Assembly (NCBI GenBank): GCA_902779165.1
Contig: CACZAN010000025.1
Location: 52,010 to 103,782, forward strand
Direction of reading: 5' to 3'
DNA from: an uncultured Bacteroidales bacterium
Lineage (GTDB): Bacteria; Bacteroidota; Bacteroidia; Bacteroidales; Bacteroidaceae
Length of the DNA stretch: 51,773 bases
Below, piece after piece: positions 30,667 through 51,512 of the stretch (position 1 is the first letter of the stretch; every line of letters starts with the position of its first letter). The notes under the pieces are model-generated. The model was not told the DNA's origin, did not search any database, and saw only the letters and a program-made list of their open reading frames with translations. The translations under genes were made by a program, and so were the position numbers.

Positions 30667-30743
30667 GTCTTTATGCTTTCTTTACGTTAACCTTACGATG
30701 ACCATAGGCTATCCTGACCATAACCCTACGTTGACCTTACATT

Positions 30744-30822
30744 GGCCTTACGATAACCATATGTTGACTCTACGTTGGCCTTACGATAACCATATGTTGA
30801 CTCTACGTTGGCCTTACGTTGT
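30744..30822. repeat. 33-bp tandem repeat, about 2.4 copies
   Basis: The unit begins GGCCTTACGATAACCATATG at 30744 and repeats at 30777 with a partial copy from 30810. Degenerate relatives extend left to about 30690 (CCTTACGATGACCATAGG). It lies between the tRNA-Pro terminator and the 3' end of a convergent gene. The + strand open frame through it has only repeat-derived residues and is not called as a gene. Confidence 0.8.
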
Positions 30823-45161: not shown

Positions 45162-45374
45162 CAACTTTCTCGCGACATAATTATAAGGAACGCGCGAAAA
45201 CATTTCCCTCTTGGTGGAAAAAACGAATTTTTTGGTAAAAATGGCGATTTCCGAGCCGCAGAACACCAATCTTAGCTGTTGGGATTTAGCAAGAAGTCTA
45301 ATAGTCCGATGATCTGGAACCCATTATCGTTATGATATGGCATGATTAAACATCTTAAACTTTCTACGCTCTCT

Positions 45375-45498
45375 CACGCACGCGCGTGAAGGAAATCTGA
45401 AAAAATCAACTGAATCTACTGCAATCAATAGTAGCTTATTGATATGCAACGGATTATCTTGCAGTAGATTTTCTGAAAAATATGGTTTTTGCAGTAGA
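45375..45498 (+). repeat. Left terminal repeat of the VirE unit
   Basis: The outer tip is an alternating CG palindrome (TCACGCACGCGCGTGA, 45374-45389). Next comes a 27-bp block at 45398-45424 (TGAAAAAATCAAC...CTACTGCAA), identical to the reverse complement of 48573-48599. Three boxes lie at 45415-45424 (TCTACTGCAA), 45459-45468 and 45489-45498 (both TTGCAGTAGA). The first two face each other and could form a 10-bp stem with a 34-nt loop. Confidence 0.85.
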
Positions 45499-45512
45499 TT
45501 TTTGGCCAAAAA

Positions 45513-45544
45513 TTTGGATTTTCCGAAAAAATGTTGTATCTTTG
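45513..45544 (+). promoter_or_regulatory. Promoter of the DUF6078-virE genes
   Basis: TTTG (45513-45516), 20-bp spacer, TATCTTTG (45537-45544). It starts 15 bp inside the left repeat, so the unit carries its own promoter. The leader before the DUF6078 ATG is about 115 nt. Confidence 0.82.
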
Positions 45545-45589
45545 CAGCGTAAATCAAAAGAGAATCTATAACCCCAAATGAATAATCGT

Positions 45590-45663
45590 AAGTAGGTGAA
45601 CGAAATTAGTTATACGTCACCTACCATTACAAACATAGTTAAATAATTATTTTTCACCTACTT
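45590..45663 (+). promoter_or_regulatory. Inverted AAGTAGGTGA boxes in the leader of the DUF6078 gene
   Basis: AAGTAGGTGA (45590-45599) has an exact reverse complement, TCACCTACTT (45654-45663), ending one base before the ATG at 45665. A second partial complement, TCACCTAC, lies at 45617-45624. The first box can therefore pair with either downstream copy, which makes two exclusive hairpins, one of them covering the start-codon region. It could be an RNA switch for translation or an operator. A related box lies at 51632-51641. Confidence 0.6.
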
Positions 45664-45664
45664 T

Positions 45665-46102
45665 ATGAAAGAACTTTCTTACTCCGACGCCCCTCGTGAC
45701 TGGGGCATTTGCCTGCAAACCGATTGCCCCCTGGCCGCCACCTGCCTTCGCCATCGCGTGGCCGAGCTGTGCCCCACGACAGTGAAGCGCCATGTCGTGG
45801 TGATGCCTTCCGCCCGCAAGGGCGATGAATGCAGCGCCTTTGTGAACCCGGATCCCATTGTGCTGGCCTACGGGCTTAAGTGCACCTTCACCCATGTCAG
45901 CAAGTGGCACCTCGAAGCGATGCTGCCCGAGCTGAAAGGCTATTTCGGCAGCCACTCCACCTATTACCGCTATTACAACGGCCAGCGGGCCCTGACGCCT
46001 GCCGACCAGCAGCGCGTGGCCGCCCTCCTCAAGAAGTACGGCTACAAAGATGCTCCCAAGTTCGATAAGACGATAGAGACTTATGATTTCACGAACAAGT
46101 GA
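45665..46102 (+). CDS. DUF6078-like protein
   Basis: 145 residues, soluble, no signal. The pattern fits the Bacteroidetes family DUF6078 as I recall it: an N-terminal Cys-rich segment (GICLQTDCPLAATCLRHRV, four Cys within ~35 residues counting CPTT), a central basic region (AYGLKCTFTHVSKWHLEAM), then YYRYYNGQRALTPADQQRV and a C-terminal KFDKTIETYDF. The family is typically found next to VirE or HU-like genes, and its function is unknown. The Cys cluster could bind metal, and the helical C-terminal part resembles small DNA-binding domains; both are inference. It is the first gene after the unit's promoter, with a translation start next to an inverted repeat. A 254-bp spacer occupied by the 22-bp array separates it from virE. 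Confidence 0.8.
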   Translation: MKELSYSDAPRDWGICLQTDCPLAATCLRHRVAELCPTTVKRHVVVMPSARKGDECSAFVNPDPIVLAYGLKCTFTHVSKWHLEAMLPELKGYFGSHSTYYRYYNGQRALTPADQQRVAALLKKYGYKDAPKFDKTIETYDFTNK

Positions 46103-46109
46103 TGAAAGC

Positions 46110-46351
46110 GAGTTCCAGCAGTGGAATTCCTGAGTTCCAGCAGTGGAATTCCTGAGTTCCAGCAGTGGAACTGACGAGTTCCAGCAGTGGAACTCGAGAA
46201 TTCCAGTACTGGAACTCGACATCACGGCCTGTAGCATTCGCCCTTACGACCTGTAGCATTCACCTTTTCGCCCTGCTGAATGCACCGATACGACCCGTTA
46301 AACACACCGTTATAATCTAAAGAATTGACCATTATAATCTAAAGAATAGAC
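46110..46351 (+). repeat. Array of 11 contiguous 22-bp units with drifting sequence
   Basis: Units begin at 46110, 46132, 46154, 46176, 46198, 46220, 46242, 46264, 46286, 46308 and 46330, without a base of slippage, and the last ends 5 bp before the virE ATG. Units 1-5 are palindromic (GAGTTCCA-gcag-TGGAACTC type; unit 5 has centre GTAC). Units 6-8 share CCTG...GCATTC or GAATGC cores. Units 9-11 grade into CCGTTAAACACAC and TATAATCTAAAGAAT. Neighbouring units resemble each other most. There is no alternating repeat and spacer as in CRISPR. 22 bp is close to two helical turns, so an ordered protein-binding array or origin-like iterons are plausible. Confidence 0.85.
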
Positions 46352-46356
46352 AGAAG

Positions 46357-48468
46357 ATGAAGTTCACGATACTTTCCGGCGCCCGCCAAGGAGCGGTTCG
46401 CCGCAGCACTCAGAAGGCAGAAGCCTTCTTCGAGCGTATCACAGAGGACCACAACGACTGGCTGATTTCCAGCTTCCGACAGGCCCTGCCCCGGCTCTCG
46501 AAGCCGGAACTGTTTCTACGCTACCATAAGATTGCCCACGTGCTGCCGGCCGTGGAACTGTCGCGCCAAGAGAACGGAGCCTTGCAGATGACACAGTACA
46601 ACGGCATCATCGTCCTCGAGGTTAAACCCCTGCGCAGCAAGGAGTTAGTGCAGAAGGCGAAGCGGCAGGCGAGCACACTGCCTTCGACATTAGCCGCCTT
46701 CACCGGTGCCGACGGGCAGTCGGTGGACGTACTGGTGCGCGTGAAACGGACCGACGGCACGCTGCCCAAAGAGGAGGCCGACGCCGCACGCTTCTACGAC
46801 GAAGCGTTCGCACAGGTACTGCCCCTGTACCAGAGCGCCCTGCAGGACCTGCCCTTAGAGACAGAAAGCGGCGGCCTGCGCCATGCATTGCTGCTGCCGC
46901 TGGACCAAGAGCCCTATGTGGACATGGATGCCGCTGCCATCAAGATTCAGGCGGTGGCCGAAGCACCGACGTCAACAGATGCCTTTGCCGCCCTACCCGC
47001 CCCCAGACACCGCCAGAAGGAGGAGGACTGGGAGGCCTACAGCGTCTATGAAAACCTCTTCGGGATGGCCTGCCGACGGGCTCACGAGTCTACGGGCATA
47101 GCAGAAACCGACGCCCTCAACCCGCTGCTGCTGACCGCAATAGCACACGAGATGCTGGAGGCCGGAGTGCCCCAGGAAGAGACCGTCACCCACCTGTGGC
47201 ACCACCTGATGTTCAAGGACGGCGCCGACGAGCAGGCCGTACGCAGCATCGTGGAAGCCACCTATGACGACGAACTCGCCGACGGCTTCGAGGCACCGAA
47301 GACATTGAAGCTCCCCGGCCAGGAGATGCGCGAACTCATACGCAGGCTGGAACAGCGCTACGTCTTCCGCCGCAACGAGATCATGGGCTGGACGGAATAT
47401 CGCAGGAATGCCAGCGCCCATTCACTCTGGGCGCCCATAGACCGCAGCGCCGTCAGCGACTTCGTCATCGAACTGCGAGTGGCAGGAGTGAATATCAGCG
47501 AGAAAGATGTATGGAACTATGTCCTGAGCCGTCGCCGCATACCACGCTACAACCCCGTCACCGACTACCTTTATGACTGCCGCGACAAATGGGACGGCAA
47601 AGATCACATCCGCGCACTGGCCCGCACCGTTCCTACTGAATATCAGCAATGGCCCGACCTCTTCCACACCTGGTTCCTGTCGATGGTGGCACAGTGGCGA
47701 GGGATGAACCGCCGCTTCGGCAACGCACTGGTGCCCCTGCTCGTGTCGCGCCAAGGCTACCACAAGAGCGACTTCTGCCGCCAGCTGCTGCCCCGCCAAC
47801 TGCGGTCGTGGGGATTCACCGACTCCCTGCTGATGGAAGAGAAGAAGACGGTGCTGACGGGGATGACCCAGCTGCTGCTCATCAACCTCGACGAATTCAA
47901 CCAGATCTCACCACGACAGCAGGAAGGGTTCCTGAAGAACATCATCCAGCTGCCGGCCGTGAAGCTGAAGCGGCCTCACGCAAAGCACATCGAGGATGTG
48001 CCCCGACTGGCATCCTTCATCGCCACCACCAATCAGGCCGACGTACTTAGCGACCCTGCCGGATCCCGACGTTTCATCGGAGTACATGTCACAGGCGACA
48101 TCGACACCACCCAACAGCCTAATTATGAACAACTCTACGCCCAGGCGATGCAGGAGCTGGACAACGATGTGCGCTACTGGCTGGATGCCGACGAGACGAC
48201 CTTGCTGATGGAGCACAACCGCCAGTTCCAGCAGTATTCCGCGGCCCTCAACTACTTCTTCGACTACTTCGAAGTGACCGACGACGCCACCTCACCCGAC
48301 AGCATCTGGCTCTCGGCCTCTGCCATCCTTGCAGAGGTGAAACATCGTGCCGGCGGAGCCATGAAGGTGCCCACCCTCAATAAATTCGCCCGCGAACTGC
48401 GCCAGCTCCCCGACATCCACAGTCGCAGCACCCGGGCTGCCGTCGAATACCTCGTCAAGCGCAAATAA
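46357..48468 (+). CDS. VirE-family protein (BT4734-like N-terminal, D5/SF3-like helicase core, DUF3874-like tail)
   Basis: 703 residues. The N-terminal ~180 residues fit the BT4734/BF3469-like domain of VirE proteins (ALPRLSKPELFLRYHKIAHVLP, NGIIVLEVK), a region related to primase-like catalytic folds. The middle (~370-630) is the virulence-associated-E P-loop domain: Walker A-like LVSRQGYHKSDF (Gly467, Lys470), Walker B-like LLLINLDEFNQ (Asp512, Glu513), sensor-like FIATTNQADVLSDPAGSRRFIG with candidate Arg fingers. The last ~75 residues (FDYFEVTDDATSPDSIWLSASAIL...) match DUF3874, probably a DNA-binding winged helix. Such proteins are inferred replication or mobilisation ATPases on Bacteroidetes elements. 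The gene lies inside the repeat-bounded unit, and its 3' end is duplicated at 51112-51360. Confidence 0.88.
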   Translation: MKFTILSGARQGAVRRSTQKAEAFFERITEDHNDWLISSFRQALPRLSKPELFLRYHKIAHVLPAVELSRQENGALQMTQYNGIIVLEVKPLRSKELVQKAKRQASTLPSTLAAFTGADGQSVDVLVRVKRTDGTLPKEEADAARFYDEAFAQVLPLYQSALQDLPLETESGGLRHALLLPLDQEPYVDMDAAAIKIQAVAEAPTSTDAFAALPAPRHRQKEEDWEAYSVYENLFGMACRRAHESTGIAETDALNPLLLTAIAHEMLEAGVPQEETVTHLWHHLMFKDGADEQAVRSIVEATYDDELADGFEAPKTLKLPGQEMRELIRRLEQRYVFRRNEIMGWTEYRRNASAHSLWAPIDRSAVSDFVIELRVAGVNISEKDVWNYVLSRRRIPRYNPVTDYLYDCRDKWDGKDHIRALARTVPTEYQQWPDLFHTWFLSMVAQWRGMNRRFGNALVPLLVSRQGYHKSDFCRQLLPRQLRSWGFTDSLLMEEKKTVLTGMTQLLLINLDEFNQISPRQQEGFLKNIIQLPAVKLKRPHAKHIEDVPRLASFIATTNQADVLSDPAGSRRFIGVHVTGDIDTTQQPNYEQLYAQAMQELDNDVRYWLDADETTLLMEHNRQFQQYSAALNYFFDYFEVTDDATSPDSIWLSASAILAEVKHRAGGAMKVPTLNKFARELRQLPDIHSRSTRAAVEYLVKRK

Positions 48469-48498
48469 AGCTACTCTAAGCAGCAGATTCCCAAAAAA

Positions 48499-48622
48499 TC
48501 TACTGCAAAATGCACCAATTTTCAAAAATCTACTGCAAGGCATATAGCTGTATTTCAATATTCTACAACCCCTTGCAGTAGATTCAGTTGATTTTTTCAA
48601 CTTTTTATCACGCGCGCGCGAG
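48499..48622 (-). repeat. Right terminal repeat of the VirE unit
   Basis: Boxes TCTACTGCAA at 48499-48508 and 48529-48538, and TTGCAGTAGA at 48573-48582, mirror the left end (30 and 44 bp apart). The perfect 27-bp block is 48573-48599 and the CG tip is 48609-48620. It begins 30 bp after the virE stop. Confidence 0.85.
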
Positions 48623-48629
48623 AATAAGG

Positions 48630-48668
48630 TATAATTGATAATGTATAATTGATAATGTATAATTGATA
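48630..48668. repeat. 14-bp tandem repeat, 2.8 copies
   Basis: TATAATTGATAATG at 48630, 48644 and (partial) 48658, just outside the right terminal repeat. Confidence 0.75.
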
Positions 48669-48670
48669 CC

Positions 48671-48879
48671 TCAAGTTTCGCTAGTATGCTCGCTCGAACT
48701 TTGTTCGCTTCGACTCCTCGAAGAACCAGCTGTAATACAAAGCCCCAGCGGGGCGTGACAATGGTAGCCAGCCGTTTCAACGGCTGGTATAAAGCGGCCA
48801 GGAAAAAGCGTGCCTTACCAGCCATTGAAATGGCTGGCTACCATTGTCTGATGCCTACGGCATCACTTGCGAAACTTGA
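48671..48879. repeat. Composite palindromic repeat (MITE/REP-like), 209 bp
   Basis: Outer arms TCAAGTTTCGC and GCGAAACTTGA are exact inverted repeats. Nested hairpins inside include GCCCCAGCGGGGC (48742-48754), CCAGCCGTTTCAACGGCTGG, CCAGCCATTGAAATGGCTGG and GATGCCTACGGCATC. Open frames through it on both strands (such as those with PLKRLATIVTPRWGF) are translations of the repeat, not genes. The first ~90 bp recur at 51662-51753. Confidence 0.75.
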
Positions 48880-49049
48880 ATTGATACTTTTTTTGGAAAT
48901 ATTCTATCACGACACATCTGTGCTTTTCAAGACGTTCGGCACGGCCCATGTTTTGAATTATTTCAAGCAAAAAGACGAGAAAAACGATAAAGTAGTGAGG
49001 AAATGTGTTAATTATCGTGATATTATGAATTTGTTTCAAGATAAATGCG

Positions 49050-49057
49050 TATCTTTG
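49050..49057 (+). promoter_or_regulatory. -7 box (TATCTTTG) for the RhuM gene
   Basis: TATCTTTGTAGCC. A TTTG at 49030-49033 is only 16 bp upstream, shorter than usual. The 170 bp before it (48880-49049) show no gene. Confidence 0.5.
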
Positions 49058-49102
49058 TAGCCAATAACAATGAAATCATCCATTTTGGACAAAGACATCA
49101 AT

Positions 49103-50098
49103 ATGAACAACGAAATACAATTCATATTATATCAGCTGCCCGACGATGAAGGCAAGGTGCAGGTGGTCATCAAAGATGAGACCATTTGGGCTACGCAGAA
49201 GGCTATGGCCCAGCTGTTTGACGTGGGGATACCTGCCATTAGCAAGCACCTGAAGAATATTTTTGAAGAAGGAGAATTGCCTGAAAGTTCAGTTGTTTCC
49301 AAAATGGAAATAACTGCTTCTGACGGCAAAGACTACCTCACTTCTTTCTACTCTCTCGACGCCATTATTGCTGTAGGCTATCGAGTTTCTTCCTTAAGGG
49401 CTACACGTTTCCGTCAATGGGCAACAAAGATTCTGAATGAGTATATCCGTAAAGGATTCGTACTCGATGAAGACCGGCTTAAACAGGGAACAGCAGTTTT
49501 TGGCAAAGACTACTTCCGTGAACTGTTGGAGAAGGTGCGCAGTATCCGCGCCAGTGAACGCCGCATTTGGCAACAGATCACCGACATCTATGCGGAGTGC
49601 TCTTTCGACTACGACCGCAATTCGCCCACTACCCGCGAGTTCTACCAGATGGTACAGAACCGTTTCCACTATGCCATCACAGGCCAGACGGCTCCTGAGA
49701 TTATCTATACCCGTGCCGACCATACTAAAGACCACATGGGCCTGCAGACGTGGAAGCACGCACCCGACGGCCGCGTGCTGCTCAGCGACACGAAGGTGGC
49801 CAAGAACTACTTGCCCGAAGTGGAAATACGCCGCCTGGAGCGTGTTGTATCGGGCTATTTCGACTATATCGAAGACCTGATAGAGCGAGAGAATGCTTTC
49901 AGCATGGAGCAGTTCGCAGCCTCTGTCAACGAGTTCCTGACCTTCCGTCGATATGCCCTTTTGCCTGATAAAGGACAGGTCAGCCGCGAGATGGCCGACC
50001 GCAAAGCCGAGGAAGAGTACAAACTTTTCAACCCCACGCAGCAAATAGACTCCGACTTCGACAAAGAAGTGAGAGGACTATTAGACGGAAGGGAGTAG
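49103..50098 (+). CDS. RhuM family protein
   Basis: 331 residues from the ATG at 49103, where the family-typical MNNEIQFILYQ begins; an ATG at 49070 adds 11 residues and is the alternative. Family features: VVIKDETIWATQKAMAQLFDV (N-terminal winged-helix-like region), ISKHLKNIFEEGEL, DYLTSFYSLDAIIAVGYRVSSLRATRFRQWATKIL (a segment shared with Bro-N-like or phage antirepressor proteins) and EFLTFRRYALLPDKGQVS near the end. RhuM proteins are widespread on phages, islands and defence-type regions; the molecular role is unknown, and DNA binding is suspected. It lies between the palindromic repeat and the KilA-N gene, as accessory cargo right of the VirE unit. Confidence 0.88.
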   Translation: MNNEIQFILYQLPDDEGKVQVVIKDETIWATQKAMAQLFDVGIPAISKHLKNIFEEGELPESSVVSKMEITASDGKDYLTSFYSLDAIIAVGYRVSSLRATRFRQWATKILNEYIRKGFVLDEDRLKQGTAVFGKDYFRELLEKVRSIRASERRIWQQITDIYAECSFDYDRNSPTTREFYQMVQNRFHYAITGQTAPEIIYTRADHTKDHMGLQTWKHAPDGRVLLSDTKVAKNYLPEVEIRRLERVVSGYFDYIEDLIERENAFSMEQFAASVNEFLTFRRYALLPDKGQVSREMADRKAEEEYKLFNPTQQIDSDFDKEVRGLLDGRE

Positions 50099-50282
50099 CA
50101 AGAGCCCCAACTACCACCGCATTATCCACAAGAACCGCTCGAGCTCTGCTCGCTTGCAACCAAAGGGACGCAAGAATCCGAGGTTCAATCGAAAGAACCA
50201 AAGGTTGACGGCCGAAGGGAAAGTCAAGTTCCAGCTCGTGTTCGAAAATGGCGAGGTGCTGAGGCTTGGGGAGATGAAATAG
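50085..50282 (+). pseudogene. Short open frame without a start, possible gene remnant
   Basis: A frame from 50085 to TAG at 50280-50282 encodes about 65 residues, with a basic middle (KGRKNPRFNRKNQRLTAEGK) and a well-formed end (VKFQLVFENGEVLRLGEMK), which looks like a real beta-hairpin. There is no ATG, GTG or TTG near its beginning, and it overlaps the RhuM stop in another frame. Probably the 3' end of a broken gene. Family unknown. Confidence 0.35.
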
Positions 50283-50388
50283 AAGATAGTAAGAAGTAAA
50301 TAAGAAAGAAAAGGCAAAGATAAAAGTTGAGAATACTGAGATTACAGTCGTTAGTGTTCAGAACGAAGACTATATCTCACTAACCGAT

Positions 50389-51111
50389 ATGGCTCACAGC
50401 CAAATGCAAGAGCACATCGTATTCAGATGGATGAGCTTGAAAAGTACCATTGAATATTTAGGTGAATGGGAGATGCTGTATAACCCTAATTTTATTTGTA
50501 CCGAATTCGATACAATTAGGAATGCGGCAGGAAGCAACCACTTTGTTTTGTCTGTAAAGGCATGGATTGAGCGAACAGGAGCCATTGGAATTATGGCTAA
50601 GGCTGGCCGTTATGGAGGAACATACGCTCACAGGGATATTGCCTACCATTTTGGCATGTGGATAAGTTCGCGTTTCCAACTTTTGCTCGTCAAGGAGTAT
50701 CAAAGACTTAAAGCTGACGAGCAAAAACAACTTGCGTGGTCGGCGAAGCGAGAACTATCGAAAATCAACTACCGCATACATACCGATGCTATCAAGAGCA
50801 ATCTCATTCCAGCAGAAGTGACACGCGAACAAGCAGCGATGAAGTATGCCGAGGAAGCCGATGTACTGAATGTCGCCATGTTTGGAATGACTGCCAAGCA
50901 ATGGCGTGAGGCTAATCCTGACCTCAAGGGTAACATACGGGACTACGCCACTATCAACGAACTCATTTGTCTCTCTAATATGGAGAACATCAACGCCGTG
51001 CTCATCAACGACGGCATGCCTCAGGGCGAACGCCTTGTGAAGCTCAACCAGATCGCTATTCAGCAAATGCAGGTGCTAGAAGACAATAGCGGTCGGAACC
51101 TGTTGAAGTGA
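50389..51111 (+). CDS. KilA-N domain protein, probably with lost original start
   Basis: 240 residues from the first ATG. The frame is open back to 50293, and the upstream codons read NKKEKAKIKVENTEIT then VVSVQNEDYISLTDMA, which is the expected beginning of a KilA-N protein. The codon where a family-typical ATG would be (50296-50298) is GTA, so the true start may be destroyed and the 50389 product would lack the first ~30 residues. The KilA-N domain (ISLTDMAHSQ..., FRWMSLKSTIEYLGEWE, KAGRYGGTYAHRDIAYHFGMWISSRFQLLLVKEY) is a DNA-binding fold of phage antirepressors. The C-terminal part is helical to VLEDNSGRNLLK. The TGA stop abuts a virE tail in the same frame. Confidence 0.8.
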   Translation: MAHSQMQEHIVFRWMSLKSTIEYLGEWEMLYNPNFICTEFDTIRNAAGSNHFVLSVKAWIERTGAIGIMAKAGRYGGTYAHRDIAYHFGMWISSRFQLLLVKEYQRLKADEQKQLAWSAKRELSKINYRIHTDAIKSNLIPAEVTREQAAMKYAEEADVLNVAMFGMTAKQWREANPDLKGNIRDYATINELICLSNMENINAVLINDGMPQGERLVKLNQIAIQQMQVLEDNSGRNLLK

Positions 51112-51360
51112 CGCCAGTTCCAGCAGTCTTCCGTCGCCCTCAACTACTTATTCGACTACTTCGAAGTGGCCGACGACGCCACCTCACCCGACAGCATCTG
51201 GCTCTCGGCCTCTGCCATCCTTGCCGAGGTGAAACATCGTGCCGGCGGAGCCATGAAGGTGCCTACCCTCAACAAGTTCGCCCGCGAACTGCGTCAGCTC
51301 CCCGACATCCACAGTCGCAGCACCCGGGCTGCCGTCGAATACCTCATCAAGCGCAAATAA
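51112..51360 (+). pseudogene. Second copy of the virE 3' end (DUF3874-like tail), truncated
   Basis: This segment is colinear with 48220-48468 and about 95% identical, encoding RQFQQSSVALNYLFDYFEV...YLIKRK. The N-terminal ~620 residues of VirE are absent. It begins directly after the KilA-N TGA and in the same frame, with no initiation signal of its own except an internal ATG at 51254. The homology continues through the right terminal repeat, so this is the remnant of another VirE unit. Confidence 0.85.
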
Positions 51361-51390
51361 AGCAACTCCAAGCAGCAGATTCCCAAAAAA

Positions 51391-51512
51391 TCTACTGCAA
51401 AATGCACCAATTTACAAAAATCTACTGCAAGGTATATAGCTGTATTTCAACACACTACAACCCCTTGCAGTAGATTCAGTTGTTTTTTTCAACTTTTTAT
51501 CACGCGCGCGCG
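51391..51512 (-). repeat. Second right terminal repeat
   Basis: Boxes at 51391-51400, 51421-51430 and 51465-51474 keep the 30 and 44 bp spacing of the first right end, at a constant offset of 2892 bp. The CG tip is 51501-51512. The 27-bp block has one change (GAT to GTT). Confidence 0.85.

Follow-up and report, generated by a model that had tools for sequence, protein, structure and literature searches.

A phased 22-bp palindromic array beside DUF6078 as a candidate protein-binding component of a putative transposase-less mobile element in Bacteroidales

The space between a DUF6078 gene and a virE gene in an uncultured Bacteroidales bacterium is almost filled by 22-bp units, and the best explanation we can offer is that this array comprises binding sites for the DUF6078 protein and acts in cis within a small mobile element that lacks a transposase. 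We give this explanation, in which both binding and mobility are argued from sequence comparison, about an even chance of being right. The fixed period kept over many different sequences, the linkage to DUF6078, the dispersal of the arrays, the terminal inverted repeats (TIRs), and the existence of short elements of the MITE type that share both TIRs and array can be read directly in the loci compared. The array lies in a window (the whole stretch of DNA that was analysed) of 51,773 nucleotides, taken from a draft genome (G000) of 3.59 Mb in 75 contigs; the named virE loci that best match the window's are in Prevotellaceae assemblies. The features of the window are as follows.

45374..45510, no strand: left TIR, with tip ACGCGCGTG and inner motifs AATCTACTGC / GCAGTAGATT; common to MITE ends
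45665..46102, forward strand: DUF6078 gene, 145 aa, Pfam PF19555, E=1.4e-31
46110..46219, no strand: palindromic block, units 1-5, consensus GARTTCCA-N4-TGGAAYTC every 22 bp; the palindrome is common to 28 host arrays
46220..46307, no strand: units 6-9, non-palindromic 22-mers in the same register; lag-22 identity 0.70 against a shuffle mean of 0.26
46308..46351, no strand: units 10-11, AT-rich 22-mers, 20/22 identical to each other
46357..48468, forward strand: virE, BT4734-like N domain and VapE-like helicase domain, with a DUF3874 match below cut-off (Pfam)
48490..48620, no strand: right TIR, ending in ...ATCACGCGCGCGCG; two 95%-identical right ends stop matching at 48620 and 51512
49070-50098: RhuM gene, PADLOC PDC-S05
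50389-51111: KilA-N gene, PADLOC PDC-S22
51112..51512, forward strand: truncated second right end (virE C-terminus and right TIR), 401 bp, 95% identical to 48220-48620

An earlier note on this DNA had described eleven 22-bp units in strict register over the 242 bp at 46110-46351, and this description is borne out by a lag-22 identity of 0.74, compared with a mean of 0.25 and a maximum of 0.35 in 1000 dinucleotide shuffles. All other lags from 11 to 33 gave at most 0.39, and Tandem Repeats Finder reported three 22-bp arrays within the interval. The array also fills almost all of the intergenic gap, as had been claimed, starting 7 bp past the DUF6078 stop (46102) and ending 5 bp before the virE ATG (46357), and units 1-5 are indeed palindromic, with 6-7 of 7 arm pairs matching in each; units 6-11, with 1-3 of 7, are not. 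The smooth drift from palindromic to AT-rich sequence that the note proposed did not hold up, since unit 6 breaks sharply with unit 5 (8/22 identical; p = 0.12 for the lag-22 signal at the boundary), and the window array is thus better described as a block of palindromes that keeps phase with the different 22-mers after it. Its division of the remaining units into 6-8 and 9-11 has likewise to be replaced by 6-9 and 10-11, the grouping favoured by the identities of adjacent units (18/22 for units 6-7, 15/22 for 7-8, 13/22 for 8-9, 10/22 for 9-10 and 20/22 for 10-11).

Tandem palindromic arrays accompany DUF6078 genes in relatives. At least two units were found within 240 nt after 81 of 101 DUF6078 genes, a few of the 81 being doubtful, whereas five shuffled sets gave 0-2; the other 20 genes failed the test. 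(The 101 genes, like the 77 of 109 virE loci in which DUF6078 is present, are partly non-independent, some loci standing under two identifiers, e.g. L031/L262 and L044/L253.) The period of the 81 arrays was 22 in 71, 21 in six and 23 in four, and their sequence differs by lineage: the palindromes include GTTCCA, GTACCA, GTCTCA, GTCCCA, TTACAA, GTTTTCT, TTACCA and more, with spacers mostly of 4 or 5. These homologous loci strongly support the note's proposal that unit length is fixed while sequence is free to change, and the random spacing among homologs that would have spoken against it was looked for and did not occur. In the 76 DUF6078-virE gaps of 60-320 nt, the window's included, there were 279 dyads compared with a shuffle mean of 27, and neighbouring dyads lay 11.0 bp apart in 141 of 205 cases and at a multiple of 11 in 178 of 205. 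A feature specific to virE was rejected because arrays accompany DUF6078 alone, as at six array-bearing DUF6078 genes with no virE match in the examined locus (L243, L244, L245, L250, L252 and L261). Moreover, all five of the DUF6078 genes considered on plasmids (of Treponema saccharophilum, Bacteroides finegoldii and Parabacteroides distasonis) and on two faecal phage scaffolds, a set from which two further phage matches were left out, pass the array test at period 22. Separately, the DUF6078 genes of L239-L242, which have the highest family scores, come with no virE match and no clear array, and perhaps belong to a different clade.

In the host genome the window palindrome is dispersed. A 17-mer from unit 1 had 98 matches at no more than two mismatches, compared with one for the reversed control, and the 31 stretches examined around matches contained 28 arrays of at least two units, or 115 units in all. 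Of the steps within these arrays, 86 of 87 were exactly 22 bp and one was 34. The inner arm positions are nearly invariant across the 115 units, an invariance fixed in part by the unit-calling procedure. At the variable outer positions 0, 1 and 3, the two arms were identical in fractions of 0.26, 0.67 and 0.36 of units, compared with 0.32, 0.68 and 0.52 expected if they were independent, so that there is no excess of pairing at these positions. Because arm variation is uncompensated, the sites look like two separately read protein half-sites and not like hairpins; RNA or single-strand hairpins were rejected on the same grounds. A search of Rfam returned only two matches, both far below threshold.

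Some related genomes are rich in palindromes of their own. Counts of GTTCCA-N4-TGGAAC across 101 genomes were 86 in G038, 39 in the host, 11 in G058, 10 in G040 and 9 in G041, with 0-2 in the rest; those of GTCTCA were 71 in G055, 19 each in G003 and G042, 15 in G010 and 7 in the host, with 0-2 elsewhere; and those of GTACCA were 13 in G043, 6 in G028 and 0-3 elsewhere, the reversed control reaching 9 in G020. TTCCCA was counted 31 times in G016, 9 in G038 and 8 in each of G041 and G058, with 0-2 in the rest. Six of the 12 palindrome-rich genomes (G000, G003, G016, G043, G055 and G058) carry their own frequent palindrome beside DUF6078 or virE. Among the other draft genomes, G010, G028, G040 and G042 have no DUF6078 match, G038 has only a fragment at a contig end, and in G041 the linked palindrome is TTTACCA, which lies outside the patterns counted.

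The DUF6078-array-virE unit is bracketed by TIRs, giving an element at 45374-48620. In particular, 45374-45503 (131 bp) is 78% identical to the reverse complement of 48494-48623, and we placed the right end at 48620 because a second, truncated copy 2.9 kb further on stops matching exactly at ATCACGCGCGCGCG. Of the 74 relatives whose flanks could be used, 53 had adjacent inverted repeats (E<=1e-5), compared with 0 of 53 for a displaced control and 10 of 74 for a direct-repeat control; none of 17 DUF6078 loci without the usual virE neighbour had long adjacent inverted repeats. Of the 28 host arrays, 10 (the window's included) have both TIR anchors, three have one and 15 have neither. The nine others with both anchors (L138, L140, L141, L147, L148, L152, L154, L159 and L162) are of the MITE type: each matches both TIRs and the array of the longer coding element, and in comparisons with the full element 107 of 109 matches fell in TIRs and array, the other two touching TIR edges. 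Three arrays in G043 also lie between inverted repeats, and in those of their ends that were inspected the inner motif AATCTTACGCA replaces AATCTACTGCA. By eye, no consistent target-site duplication was seen in the element ends compared, and the two genes recognised between the TIRs, DUF6078 and virE, match no transposase family. The 901-bp region 45600-46500, used as one query, had no match in phage or plasmid collections, and an origin of this region from either was rejected on that basis. As a side observation, two candidate defence families, RhuM and KilA-N, lie between the element's right end and the truncated second right end (48620-51512); RhuM directly adjoins DUF6078 on a Parabacteroides plasmid (L287, 1946-3438), and in the window the two lie within 3 kb of each other.

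Two arrays without TIRs lie in frame within conserved genes, one encoding a DUF5112/DUF5113/HATPase_c sensor (L160) and the other a PD40 beta-propeller protein (L164). A loop of the sensor gene holds a 108-nt stretch in G000, G042, G003, G018, G063 and G016 and one of 156 nt in G055, the other 18 of 25 orthologs being shorter. Dyads occur at 26.5, 48.5, 70.5 and 92.5 in subsets of G000, G042, G018, G063 and G055, with palindromes that differ; the same test found none in that register in G003 and G016. The palindrome of the sensor-gene array is the one frequent in the respective genome for G000, G055 and G042 (first unit) and in part for G003 (one arm), and in G063, a genome outside the counted set, it is consistent with that genome's own virE-gap palindrome. 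There is no such match in G018 and G016. The array of G018 had led us to predict that G018 and G063 would be rich in TTCCCA-N4-TGGGAA; for G018 the prediction failed, the one match being the sensor gene itself, and G016, with its 31 TTCCCA matches, has no array in this gene. On the sensor gene tree the insert needs four changes (two forced), and the insert-bearing orthologs do not form one clade, so that a single ancestral insertion that was later rewritten and several separate insertions at this one loop are both possible histories. In the PD40 gene, G038 and G041 carry arrays of other palindromes, of varying length, at the corresponding gap.

These observations bear on one alternative, namely that DUF6078 is an ordinary host regulator, that the roughly 28 arrays are the operators of its regulon and that the TIRs are incidental. 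Such a regulator would fit the 18 of 28 host arrays that fall in no naively called open reading frame of at least 70 aa, the position of an array at the end of the DUF6078 gene, which would suit autoregulation, and the six array-bearing DUF6078 genes without virE. It does not sit well with in-frame arrays in two coding genes, with MITEs that have TIRs, or with a site sequence that shifts genome-wide between related species, and we consider it unlikely.

Which protein would bind the array is a question on which the two flanking genes can be compared. DUF6078 is the sole match to its family in the host genome except for an incomplete copy, recognised at the DNA level, where a contig ends (L163). 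Three cysteines are invariant in 84 sequences, which suggests metal binding; comparison with solved structures gave no significant match. The virE product matches a DNA helicase/primase family in PHROG, and primase motif I (hhhDhD/E, as defined in the available part of PMC5862659), at the aligned place that we chose, is absent from all 64 ungapped rows, with the first D in one; VirE thus looks like a helicase without this motif. With respect to a role in defence, PADLOC gave no match for DUF6078 and matched virE to a PrimPol model only, via the N domain. Among the 73 DUF6078 genes left after duplicate proteins and four arrays in doubt (L251, L259, L264 and L246) had been taken out, protein identity and palindrome similarity were correlated (Mantel r 0.42, p<=0.0005), mean palindrome similarity rising from 0.60 at 25-35% identity to 0.89 at 60-80%. 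When the two proteins were compared as predictors of the palindrome, VirE gave r 0.48 and DUF6078 0.45, with partial values of 0.21 (p 0.001) and 0.06 (p 0.052), respectively. VirE therefore tracks the palindrome as well as or better than DUF6078, so the correlation by itself fails to identify the binder and, if anything, favours virE; we prefer DUF6078 because it persists with arrays where virE is missing.

The correlation with VirE also speaks for the array being a replication origin bound by a VirE primase-helicase, as in plasmids or phage satellites. The 22-bp repeats stand directly upstream of a helicase-type protein and beside AT-rich units, and, according to the available text of PMC5862659, ATPases with VirE domains are predicted replication helicases of mobile elements. 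The iteron set that the earlier note entertained would nonetheless be at most part of the story, since arrays are scattered around the genome and also stand behind DUF6078 genes where virE is missing, and the lack of primase motif I counts against it too. We regard this account as rather unlikely.

Dispersed, palindromic, lineage-specific and sometimes intragenic arrays recall REP palindromes mobilised by a Y1/HUH transposase (RAYT), and candidate RAYT-like genes, assigned by our reading of an HUH-type motif, do occur near four loci (L159, 4399-5691; L033, 146-1270; L122, 3230-4456; L261, 574-1113). Three of these four genes have a long C-terminal part, and neither of the two queries made of Pfam, the L159 protein and an 80-aa piece of that of L261, found a match. 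Only three of 146 loci scanned carry the HUH-type motif, however, plus L122 by similarity. Nor do the units have the GTAG/CGTC foot of REP sequences: the outermost palindrome base is variable, there is no fixed foot, and GTAG appears solely as one of 24 spacer types, in 8 of 115 units. Given in addition the strict 22-bp tandem register and the arm pairing that is not conserved, mobilisation of this kind appears improbable.

The register of the arrays extends to sequence that is not palindromic. Beyond the palindromes, lag-22 identity was 0.369 in 12 non-MITE loci of the host (585 matches compared with 410 +- 18 after shuffling), 0.407 in G003 and 0.331 in G043, G055 and G038 taken together, other lags giving about 0.26 in the three sets. 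The flanks of MITE-type arrays, at 0.28, showed no such extension (14 arrays were assigned to this type by flank similarity, and L160 and L164 were left out). Blocks of other 22-mers stand in phase in the GTCTCA arrays of the host and in arrays of G010, and the eleven-unit window array resembles these other composite arrays. Composites with blocks of non-palindromic 22-mers in the palindrome register are seen at L268-L271, L275 and L276; in the stretches examined, those of G010 contain 6-7 copies of such 22-mers. Elsewhere in the window, a 33-bp tandem repeat at 30682-30821 has an 11-bp sub-period, the dyad spacing of the palindrome arrays.

Such extension, together with the repeated 22-mers of G010 and the precedent of BrickBuilt, a 23-nt tandem repeat in a MITE (PMC4596501, in the part available), would be in keeping with a passive minisatellite inside a MITE, in which gene conversion and slippage multiply the 22-bp units and no protein reads them. 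Against this stand palindromy that is kept while sequence changes, linkage to one gene family, and MITE-type flanks that lack the extension, and here too we judge the chances to be low. The CRISPR-like memory growing by unit addition that the note had floated can be set aside as having next to no chance, for although unit length is fixed and GTCTCA palindromes typical of relatives stand in register beside current ones at C1 and C17, the units within a genome are alike, as spacers are not, the window array has no constant-repeat/spacer structure, and the 901-bp region matched no phage or plasmid.

Binding sites for an oligomer, another of the note's suggestions, remain the best fit to the array, with one half-site per helical turn. 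In the explanation that we favour, each unit would represent two inverted half-sites for a protein that recognises a specific DNA sequence, most probably DUF6078; two inverted half-sites per unit would give dyads every 11 bp, and neighbouring dimers, separated by two helical turns, could lie on the same side of the DNA. Dimers of DUF6078 at 22-bp intervals may oligomerise along the array, and this assembly could recruit the VirE helicase to unwind the DNA there. The full element, in the order TIR, DUF6078, array, virE helicase, TIR, would use its array in cis, and the short derivatives (TIR, array, TIR) would be mobilised in trans by its products. In each lineage the protein and its sites would evolve in step, with dispersed arrays homogenised or renewed to the current palindrome. 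As a more tentative extension, which we think possible but doubtful, a shift in the specificity of the protein might be followed by rewriting in register of dispersed arrays, even those in conserved genes, older specificities staying behind as in-phase fossils in a transposase-free family of elements.

If this explanation is correct, DUF6078, a family of unknown function, gains a testable role as a candidate DNA-binding protein whose site can be read beside its own gene, and the dozens of distinct sites would form a natural data set on the joint change of a protein and its DNA sites. It would also point to a candidate mobile element with no recognised transposase from which, in Bacteroidales of the rumen and gut, in-frame insertions and repeats resembling MITEs could arise, and the dispersed arrays offer a place for a direct test of concerted evolution of sites in bacteria. 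Literature searches, with subscription literature outside their scope, found no paper naming DUF6078 and did not recognise this system under Prevotella 22-bp palindromes, VirE with MITE, Bacteroidetes tandem palindromes or primase-helicase transposons; following up 22-bp repeats of P. gingivalis in the literature was equally fruitless.

No known family that we examined fits fully. Plasmid iterons are repeats of about 22 bp near a replication-type gene, with a sequence specific to the replicon. The present arrays share these traits; unlike iterons, which are confined to the origin of one replicon, they are palindromic, number 28 dispersed arrays in a draft genome and occur also beside DUF6078 without virE. 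They resemble REP and REPIN sequences with their RAYT in being dispersed palindromes with a dedicated protein, some of them intragenic and in families that differ between species (PMC3733652 and PMC8266576, as far as the available parts describe them), and differ in having no foot, few HUH-type genes nearby, no conserved pairing and a fixed tandem register. The palindromic elements of Rickettsia, as described in the available portion of PMC10969869, are likewise palindromic DNA in frame in unrelated genes. They are about 150 bp long, whereas the in-gene inserts here are arrays of 22-bp units, of about 90 bp, that come with a candidate partner gene. BrickBuilt, a MITE of Porphyromonas gingivalis, consists in the accessible account (PMC4596501) of 23-nt tandem units with small inverted-repeat ends, in 19 scattered copies in one strain, three of them without leader or tail; it shares with the present elements a host in the Bacteroidales and tandem units in a MITE with inverted-repeat ends. 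Its units are direct repeats, it is reported there as always intergenic and that account names no autonomous partner gene, whereas the present units are 22-bp palindromes of lineage-specific sequence that also occur in coding genes. A further parallel to the short elements is with Type II MITEs, in which, by the available text of PMC10969869, short TIR elements share the ends of a longer coding element; unlike these, the parent here has no recognised transposase, and its short derivatives share the array as well as the ends.
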